In this document: one piece after another, positions 18,146 to 21,228 of the stretch
How positions within the stretch are numbered: the stretch's first letter is position 1
Layout: each line of letters opens with the position of its first letter
NCBI GenBank assembly: GCA_937870635.1
Contig: CALMZP010000045.1
Location: forward strand, 1-64,000
Source: an uncultured Acidobacteriota bacterium
GTDB lineage: Bacteria; Acidobacteriota; Thermoanaerobaculia; Gp7-AA8
Reading direction: 5' to 3'
DNA length: 64,000 nucleotides
Notes under the pieces: model-generated
What the model saw: only the letters and a program-made list of their open reading frames with translations
Database searches by the model: none
Told to the model about the DNA's origin: nothing
Made by a program: the position numbers and the translations under genes

Positions 18146-18667
18146 TCAGAAGCCTTCGAGGAGGTTCGACACCAGGCTCTGCGCGAAACGCACGGCGATC
18201 TCCCGGATGGCCCGGCTCTCCTGATCGAAGGCGTCGGTGGTGTCGGGGGCGACCGTGTAATTCTCGACGAACCGGTACTGGTCGTTCTTCCAGATCACCT
18301 TCTCCTCGTCGCCCCTGGTATCCACCAGCTCGATGCTGGCCGTGATCGAGATCTGGTACTGGGTGGCCTTCCCCTGTTCGAACCCGACCGGCGTCAGATT
18401 GAAGGTGGCGATGGCTCCCCGGAGGGTCGCGTCGGCGACTTTCGGATCGGAGACGAGACGCAGCCGGCCGCGCGACACCAGCTCGCTGGCCACCTCCTGC
18501 GTCAGCTGCTGCTCGACCTCCACGCGCGTGGTGCGGTTGACCAGCGTCGGCACGTTGATGGTCTTGATGGCCGGGTCGAGGATGTTCCCCCGTCCGACCA
18601 GGGTGTAGCCGCAGGAGGTGGCGAAAATCGCCATCGCCCCGACCAGAACATGGATGAGAGCCTTCAT
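18146..18667 (-). CDS. lptE: LPS-assembly lipoprotein LptE family
   Basis: A 173-residue lipoprotein with lipobox [11 protein letters not shown]. LptE plugs the LptD barrel at the outer membrane and helps insert lipopolysaccharide. The family pattern [37 protein letters not shown] and a late run of beta structure ([16 protein letters not shown]) is present, and the length is typical. The ATG at 18667 overlaps the leuS stop by ATGA, and the leuS-lptE order is the usual one in diderm genomes, which supports both the start and the function. The encoded C-terminus (LVSNLLEGF) is directly followed by a REP-like singlet. Confidence 0.85.
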
Positions 18668-21228
18668 CGCACCACCAGATTGACCAGTTTCCCCGGCACG
18701 TAGATGGTTTTCACGACCTGTTTGCCCTCGATCCATGACCGCACCCGCTCATTCTTCTGTACTTCGCCCATGATCACCGACTCCACCGGCGGGTTCGGGA
18801 CTTCGATCTGGCCCCGCAGCTTGCCGTTGACCTGCACCACAATGGTGACGACGTCCTCCTGCATGAGCGCAGGATCGGCCTCCGGCCAGGGCGAGGTCAG
18901 AATCATCCCCTTTTCCCCGAACGCCTCCCACAACTCCTCGGTCATATGCGGAGCGAAGGGATGGAGCATCTTCAGGAGCGCCAGATACGGTTCTCGCAGC
19001 GAGCCGGCGTGTTCGGCCACGTGATCGCCGAGGGTGTTGGAGAGCTCCATCAGGGCGGAGACGGCGGTGTTGAATTCGAAGCGCTCGATCCGGCGTCCGA
19101 CGGCGTCGATGGTTTGGTGGGTTTTGCGGAGGACGGTCGGAGGGATCGACGCGTGAGGGACCGACGCGGGCGGGGTCGCCCGCGCTCCACCCAGGATCGC
19201 CTGACCTAAATTCCAGACCCGGCCGAGGAAGCGGTAGGCGCCGATGACGCCCTCGTCCGACCAGGCCGCTTCCTTCTCCGGCGGGGCGATGAAGAGCGTG
19301 TACACGCGCTGGGTGTCGGCGCCGTAGCGGTCGATCAGCTCGTCGGGCGCGACGACGTTGAATCGCGACTTCGACATCTTCCCCATCTCGGGGACCAGCT
19401 CGACCGGGCCGCGGTAAGGCTTCCCGTCCCGCCACTCGACGTCGCCGAGGGCGACCCAGGCCATGTTGGCCGAGGGGTCGCGGTAGCCCTCCTTGGTGAT
19501 CATGGCCTGGTTGAAGAGGCGCCGGAACGGCTCCTCGTGCTCGAGGAGCCCGAGGTCGTGCATCGCCCGGCAGATGAAACGGGCGTAGAGCAGGTGGAGG
19601 ATGGCGTGCTCGATCCCGCCGATGTACTGGTCGACCGGAAGCCAGCGATTGACGAGCTTCGTGTCGAAGATCTTCTCGTTGTCGCGGGCGCTGATGAACC
19701 GCGCGTAGTACCACGACGAATCGACGAACGTGTCCATCGTGTCGGTCTCGCGCTTCGAATCGGCGCCGCACTTCGGACATTTAACGTTAACAAACGCTTC
19801 GTGCTTCGCGAGCGGGTTCCCTTCGCGTCCGGTGAAGGGGACATCGAGCGGTAATTCGACGGGCAGATCGCGCTCCGGAACGGGGACGAGCCCGCATCCG
19901 GCGCAGTAGATCATCGGGATGGGAGTGCCCCAGTAACGCTGCCGCGAGATCAGCCAGTCGCGCAGGCGGTAGCGGATGGTCTTCTTCCCGATGCCGAGGC
20001 GCTCGATCTCGTCGGAGATCCGGTCGATGGCGGCGGGAACGGCCAGGTCGTTGATCAGGCCGGAGTTGACGATGACCGCGGAGTCGTCTTTGGCGGTGAA
20101 GGCTTCTTCGAGGTCGTCCGGCGCGGGCGGGGTCGCCCGCGCTCCACTGATCACTACCTTAATGGGCAGTTTGTATTGTCTGGCGAACTCGAAGTCCCGC
20201 TGGTCGTGGGCCGGGACGGACATGATCGCGCCCGTTCCGTACTGCATCAGCACGAAATTGCCGAGCCAGATCGGGATCTCTTCCTTCGTGAAGGGGTTGA
20301 CGGCGAATTTGCCGGTGAACTTCCCCTCCTTCCCCGACTCCTGGCGCTCGAGGTTGCTCTGGTTGCGGACCTGCCCGATCCAGCTTTCGATGGCCGCCCG
20401 GTCCGGATGATCGGCGATCAGCCCGGCCACGTCGGGATGTTCCGGCGCCAGGACCATGAACGTCGCCCCGAAGATCGTGTCGGGACGCGTGGTGAAGATC
20501 CGGATGGACTTGCCGAGGGTCGGGACGGGGAACTCGACGTCGGCGCCGACCGACCGTCCGATCCAGTTGCGCTGCATCGTCTTGACCTTGTCCGGCCAGT
20601 GCTCGAGCGTATCGAGCCCGGCGTCGAGCCGGTCGGCATAGTCGGTGATCCGGAAGAACCACTGCTCGAGCTCTTTCTGGACGACCTCCGCCCCGCAGCG
20701 CTCGCAGCGGCCGTCGACCACCTGCTCGTTGGCGAGCACGGTCAGGTCCTGGGGACACCAGTTGACCGGCGCCTTCCCGCGGTACGCCAGCCCCTTCTCG
20801 TACAGCTTGAGGAAGAGCCACTGGTTCCAGTGGTAGTAGGTCGGCTCGCAGGAGGCGACTTCTTTCGACCAGTCGTAGAGGATGCCCCACCGGGCGAACT
20901 GCTTCTTCATCCTCTGTATATTGGCGAGCGTCCACTCTCTCGGATGGATGCCGCGCTTGATCGCGGCGTTCTCCGCCGGGAGGCCGAACGCGTCCCATCC
21001 CATCGGATTGAGCGAGACGCGGCCCTTCATCCGGAAGAAACGGAAGAGAACGTCGCCGAGGATGTAGTTCCGGCCGTGCCCGACGTGGAGGTCGCCGGAG
21101 GGGTACGGGAACATGTTCAACATGTAGAACTTGTCCCCCGCCGCCTTCACATCGACCTCGGCCACCTTCGCCTCGGCCCAGCGCTGCTGCCACTTCTCTT
21201 CGATGTCTTTCGGTAGGTACTGGGTCAT
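18664..21228 (-). CDS. leuS: Leucyl-tRNA synthetase with two in-frame repeat insertions
   Basis: This 854-residue class I enzyme attaches leucine to tRNA-Leu. Visible landmarks are the HIGH-type signature PSGDLHVGH (43-51), the CP1 editing domain with [12 protein letters not shown], zinc-type CxxC pairs (CAGC, CPKC) and KMSKS at 617-621. Two short segments are not family sequence: [11 protein letters not shown] near residues 360-369, inside the editing domain, and [10 protein letters not shown] near 680-688, at the junction to the anticodon-binding domain. Each is encoded by a REP-like singlet (20123-20147 and 19166-19190) read in the same frame. Both sites fall where loops or linkers are expected, and the frame remains open. 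It follows dtd by 22 nt and overlaps lptE by 4 nt, forming an operon. Confidence 0.97.
19166..19190. repeat. REP-like singlet inside leuS (3' copy)
   Basis: GCGGGCGGGGTCGCCCGC followed by GCTCCAC on +. The sense strand of leuS reads it as GARATPPA. Confidence 0.88.
20123..20147. repeat. REP-like singlet inside leuS (5' copy)
   Basis: Identical in its 25 nt to the copy at 19166-19190 and read in the same frame as GARATPPA, in the editing domain. Confidence 0.88.

Follow-up and report, generated by a model that had tools for sequence, protein, structure and literature searches.

Two repeat-coded peptides in the leucyl-tRNA synthetase of an uncultured Acidobacteriota bacterium are probably translated REP elements

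How does a leucyl-tRNA synthetase (LeuRS) come to carry the same eight-residue peptide twice? The window analyzed here (the whole 64,000-nucleotide stretch of DNA from an uncultured Acidobacteriota bacterium) contains leuS as a minus-strand open reading frame (ORF) at 18664-21228, identified from the ORF list, Pfam, and PDB alignment. Pfam recognizes the editing, class I, and anticodon-binding domains of LeuRS in the 854-amino-acid product, which can be aligned over its full length with LeuRS structures in the PDB; no other full-length match to LeuS was found in the 4.52-Mb genome. A first-pass annotation had reported that GARATPPA occurs twice in this protein, coded by one DNA repeat in one frame, and this was borne out. 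The peptide occupies residues 362-369 and 681-688, one residue off the approximate figures given there, and a single 26-nucleotide (nt) palindrome, GTGGAGCGCGGGCGACCYCGCCCGCG, codes both copies. On the minus strand, the two sites are the identical 26-mer GTGGAGCGCGGGCGACCCCGCCCGCG, read in a common frame; the repeat is referred to below as a type-1 REP.

20122-20147, minus strand: type-1 REP, leuS site 1, coding (S)GARATPPA, residues 361-369, in a loop of the CP1 editing domain; GARATPPA codons at 20122-20145
19165-19190, minus strand: type-1 REP, leuS site 2, coding (G)GARATPPA, residues 680-688, in the loop preceding the anticodon-binding domain; GARATPPA codons at 19165-19188

Alignment with LeuS from relatives placed both segments off conserved family sequence and agreed with the loop positions first proposed for them. 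The mean majority-residue fraction was 0.44 at site 1 and 0.24 at site 2, compared with 0.70 for the whole of LeuRS, and 5.8% and 0.1% of 8-residue LeuRS windows were less conserved than sites 1 and 2, respectively. Within the CP1 editing domain, site 1 comes after the conserved ...PIKVVI segment and lies opposite the nonconserved RPGEPLPEPLE of Thermus thermophilus LeuRS (1h3n), with a 2-residue gap. The location of the sites rests on the homologue and PDB alignments; an AlphaFold2 model of LeuRS, run with one other sequence in the input, had a mean pLDDT of 32.7.

The proposal that both peptides are insertions held at only one of the two sites. The site 2 loop has 34 residues versus a same-family median of 27 (~7 residues more), while that of site 1 has 36 residues versus 35 in same-family enzymes, with no net gain. 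By loop length, then, a net insertion appears clear at site 2 only; at site 1, the REP either replaced natural loop sequence or was accompanied by a compensating loss. Because the nearest relatives are ~74% identical in LeuRS and no empty-site allele was found, the insertion events themselves are unseen, and we infer the order of events at site 1. Nothing specific on palindromic insertions in LeuRS came up in a search of the literature.

To identify the repeat, we considered its fold, its boundaries, and its distribution in the genome. As single-stranded DNA, the 26-mer is predicted to form an 8-bp stem with a 4-nt loop, preceded by an unpaired GTGGAG (hairpin z = -4.3). The pattern GTGGAGCGCGGGCGANNTCGCCCGCG, in which the loop dinucleotide is free, matched the genome 205 times, and a more permissive one that takes in both subtypes of the repeat matched 396 times; reversed controls gave 0 matches in each case, and a chance origin of the repeat was rejected. 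Codon bias was likewise rejected as an explanation of the repeated peptide. The 5′ GTGG tag is kept in nearly all copies, and information falls abruptly on either side of the 26 nt, with A only weakly favored in the position before GTGG. The second subtype, type 2, is a variant 2 nt longer than type 1. The 26-mer was found in 0 of 30 related genomes (same family, order, or class). In the window, the palindrome occurs 15 times, in two subtypes and in both orientations, with several close inverted pairs. Besides the leuS sites, they include the following.

18120-18145, minus strand: type-1 REP, intergenic, directly past the stop of an lptE-like gene downstream of leuS
48331-48356, minus strand: type-1 REP in pheT (PheRS beta chain), coding VERGRPRPR at residue 75
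55956-55981, minus strand: type-1 REP in an aconitase-family gene (54606-56633), coding GGARATSPA at residue 218
52168-52193, minus strand: type-1 REP in a GDSL-lipase-family gene (51875-52660, plus strand), antisense, coding AGEVARAP
15529-15607: inverted type-1 REP pair, REPIN-like (15529-15554 plus, 15582-15607 minus), inside an ORF at 14393-17002 (plus strand)
54467-54544: inverted type-1 REP pair, REPIN-like, intergenic
61893-61968: inverted type-2 REP pair, REPIN-like, intergenic

The length of 26 nt falls within the 20- to 40-nt range of REP stem-loops, and 61 of 95 intergenic REPs in the genome survey described below have a neighbor within 130 nt, mostly inverted (REPIN-like). Stem-loop size, a GTRG-type tag, high genome-specific copy number, inverted dimers, and a predominantly extragenic location together identify the repeat, by sequence, as a GTGG-tagged REP element of the GTAG/GTRG superfamily, for which GTGG and GTRG tags are on record (PMC3733652).

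Elements of this superfamily are accompanied by RAYT transposases, and a candidate was found. The genome has three Y1_Tnp genes. A RAYT-type gene encoding 194 amino acids lies at L031 1342-1923 (G000:C139:6623-7204), on a contig other than that of leuS, with exact type-1 REPs at L031:1354 and 1933 and a type-2 REP at 2000. Its product matches the Y1_Tnp domain (PF01797; E = 1.8e-9), and its best PDB match is Escherichia coli TnpA_REP (4er8), with the HVH motif (at residue 81) and the tyrosine before NP aligned; Y140 stands opposite residue 115 of 4er8. The C terminus is coded by the 3′ REP of the gene, read as SGARATSPA in the same frame as in LeuRS. A Y1/HUH domain with HxH and tyrosine, in a gene flanked by REPs, marks this ORF as a RAYT by layout and sequence, and, judging from the layout only, it would move these REPs as single-stranded DNA. 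RAYT homologues are present in 26 of 31 related genomes; in one relative, G004, the homologue (C55:345-836) is surrounded by GTAG REPs of a different kind that belong to that genome. The system thus resembles published GTAG REPs and REPINs with RAYTs (PMC3733652; PMC3116915), with the same 20- to 40-nt GTRG hairpin, many copies, inverted pairs, a REP-flanked RAYT, and a genome-specific family. It differs from them in the high share of copies inside genes (33% of type 1).

This share was determined in 847 kb of the genome, in which REPs with ≤3 mismatches were collected and genes were called with a simple codon-model finder, checked by Pfam (77.5% coding). The survey gave 136 REPs (100 type 1 and 36 type 2; 0 with the reversed pattern), 34 of them inside genes and 102 not. 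Type 1 accounted for 33 of the in-gene copies, spread over 24 predicted genes. Since 33 of 100 type-1 REPs are in genes, compared with 77.5% coding sequence (binomial p = 3e-21), in-gene copies are depleted yet common. Only 1 of 36 type-2 REPs was inside a gene (Fisher p = 1e-4 versus type 1; p = 0.04 for solo copies only). Hosts placed by Pfam were leuS (2 copies), pheT, rho (2), mutS2 (2), coxB, a d-Ala-d-Ala ligase-like gene, a 2-oxoacid dehydrogenase E2 gene (3), a UvrD-like helicase gene, and the aconitase-family gene. In the gene for DNA polymerase III gamma/tau (dnaX; L090 2618-4219), three direct REPs code AGEVARAP three times, just past the clamp-loader domains.

LeuRS is therefore not special: roughly one type-1 REP in three is intragenic, and many of the host genes have housekeeping roles. 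The first-pass annotation had called two such insertions unusual for an essential enzyme, a view that these numbers and published cases in other bacteria (PMC3733652; PMC10969869) do not uphold. Di Nocera et al. (2013) reported intragenic REPs in DNA repair genes, tRNA synthetases, and others, most of them in Opitutus terrae, and different REPs at about the same site in recB of two Xanthomonas species (PMC3733652).

The frame in which in-gene REPs are read is strongly biased. The reading is xGARATSPA or xGARATPPA for 16 of the 33 type-1 copies and AGEVARAP for 10, with 7 in the other four frames, so that two of six frames hold 26 of the 33 (p = 1e-7). The favored frames give small, weakly charged residues, while two of the avoided frames are Arg rich; the bias may in part reflect an insertion preference rather than selection. 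Neither the coding-frame bias nor the contrast between types 1 and 2 was found described for GTAG REPs in the portions of PMC3733652 and PMC3116915 consulted. Inspection of the 26-mer shows all six frames to be free of stop codons, and an in-gene copy in units of three would thus just add about nine bland residues.

Could GARATPPA instead be a functional motif under selection, with the DNA identity as a by-product? Its appearance twice in the same frame in LeuRS, and in many other proteins, would fit such a motif. The DNA, however, is identical in and out of genes, is also read in other frames, and lies in unrelated proteins, and GARATPPA is absent from the LeuRS of all relatives aligned. This explanation is highly improbable and is largely excluded; GARATPPA is most likely without function in LeuRS, where we infer its neutrality. 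Still harder to credit is an assembly or binning artefact created by a repeat-induced misjoin. The assembly is fragmented (171 contigs) and has 2.98% contamination, but each of the two LeuRS copies is flanked on either side by uninterrupted reading frame with family homology, and the same pattern, in a consistent frame, recurs in dozens of genes.

The reading that we favor, with a probability of about 0.87, is that the two LeuRS peptides are translated copies of a selfish, RAYT-mobilized REP kept in tolerant loops. The RAYT would mobilize the REP as single-stranded DNA, with copies landing widely, and a copy landing in a gene in units of three would do little to the protein beyond lengthening it slightly. 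Purifying selection would purge frameshifting copies, those within structured regions, and those read in an Arg-rich frame, and the survivors inside genes would be those in disordered or variable loops and in bland frames such as AGEVARAP. LeuRS would have kept two because the CP1 loop (residues ~361-372) and the loop at ~679-695 tolerate changes in length and sequence. REP-bearing loops are variable in homologues.

The main competing explanation concerns how the copies arrived. REPs may have spread by recombination or template switching between hairpins, in the manner of gene conversion, overwriting loop sequence of similar length rather than being inserted by the RAYT. Site 1 of LeuRS (36 versus 35 residues) and the pheT loop (29 residues versus a median of 28, ~1 more) show nearly no net gain, and for these two pure insertion fails unless there was a compensating loss. 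In-gene REPs are also mostly solo (23 of 34, versus 34 of 95 intergenic copies; Fisher p = 0.002), while intergenic ones are mostly paired (61 of 95), and the mobile unit proposed in PMC3116915 is the REPIN, not the solo REP. On the other hand, length was gained at LeuRS site 2 (7 residues) and in the aconitase-family gene, whose loop has 19 residues versus 13.5 (5 to 6 more); REP boundaries are sharp; and a RAYT with flanking REPs is present. We consider overwriting unlikely, though a serious contender, and retain RAYT-mobilized insertion as the preferred reading.

To determine whether the same loops carry repeats in other genera, we compared LeuRS and PheRS of relatives. The site 1 loop of G008 LeuRS has ~32 extra residues derived from a long inverted repeat, an arm of which occurs 91 times in that genome; the leuS element was the only in-gene copy found in 394 kb sampled around copies. 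In G006, the same loop carries CCCCTCACCCCGTCCCTCTCCCCG..., with 14 near-copies in the genome. Both repeats in this editing-domain loop, each from a different genus of the family, are unrelated to the window REP. GTAG-tagged REPs lie in frame in pheT of G004, in the same linker as the window pheT REP; this G004 REP has 89 copies there and none in the genome studied here. Within sampled G004 DNA, 15 of 46 GTAG REPs were inside genes, mostly as in-frame inverted pairs. These data suggest that different repeats recur in the same LeuRS and PheRS loops, and as the cases are few and the loops are long-variable anyway, the recurrence is only suggestive beyond the loops being permissive. A bolder extension, which we regard as doubtful, is that the type-1 lineage is adapted to genes (stop-free and, by its length and residues, near-harmless in frame), with type 2 remaining intergenic, and that different REP families within this bacterial family reuse LeuRS and PheRS loops and so map permissive sites.

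Two further features were seen in G004. Two GTAG REPs, along with an inverted partner, are in frame in its pheT (L114), and its aconitase-family gene (L129) carries 24 extra residues, a separate insert, in the loop that holds a REP in the genome studied here.

The classic precedent for repeat-coded peptides is that of the Rickettsia palindromic elements (RPEs), which are palindromic, lie in frame in housekeeping genes, and are tolerated by the folded protein (Ogata 2000 and 2002, as cited in PMC10969869). The window REP shares in-frame insertion in protein genes with them. RPEs, however, are ~150 bp long with a conserved ORF (PMC10969869), and RPE-4 and RPE-6, which are REP-like, have a CGTC tag (PMC3733652), while the window REP has 26 nt, a GTGG tag, and a RAYT and is unrelated in sequence and host. 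With a GTGG tag rather than CGTC, and 26 nt rather than ~150 bp, the window REP is not an RPE, although it behaves like one. Intragenic REPs and RPEs are already published; the frame and subtype statistics here are unusually clear, and what is of interest is the frame bias, together with the recurrence of repeats in the same loops. Under the preferred reading, essential genes outside Rickettsia would owe part of their protein sequence to selfish DNA, for which a candidate transposase is at hand. The many in-gene REPs would make selection on frame and position measurable, and loops of LeuRS and PheRS that hold unrelated repeats in parallel would serve as a natural insertion scan of essential enzymes.

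Exact single copies of the 26-mer were also present, among the matches listed, in a Gemmatimonadetes metagenome-assembled genome (MAG; L064 2365-2390) and in a Lacunisphaera MAG (L065 3813-3838), the latter outside the two main genes there. They point either to REP sharing across phyla or to binning contamination. Lacunisphaera is an opitute. The GTAG-20 REPs of O. terrae have a GTGG tag in most copies, and that species has the most intragenic GTAG repeats (PMC3733652); the likeness to the window REP is in the tag. The Lacunisphaera copy and the O. terrae tag hint at the same REP family.

The window contains repeats of other kinds as well. At 22224-22300 there is a perfect inverted repeat, not related to the REP, with arms of 38 plus 38 nt and a loop of 1 nt. 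A second palindromic family (CACCGCAGAGACGCAGAGGACGCAGAGG...) has three copies in the window (14223-14328, 31761-31848, and 56694-56772), and at 36580-38371 direct repeats of up to 142 nt (36728, 37557, and 38252) adjoin a 34-nt inverted repeat (36580-36676).
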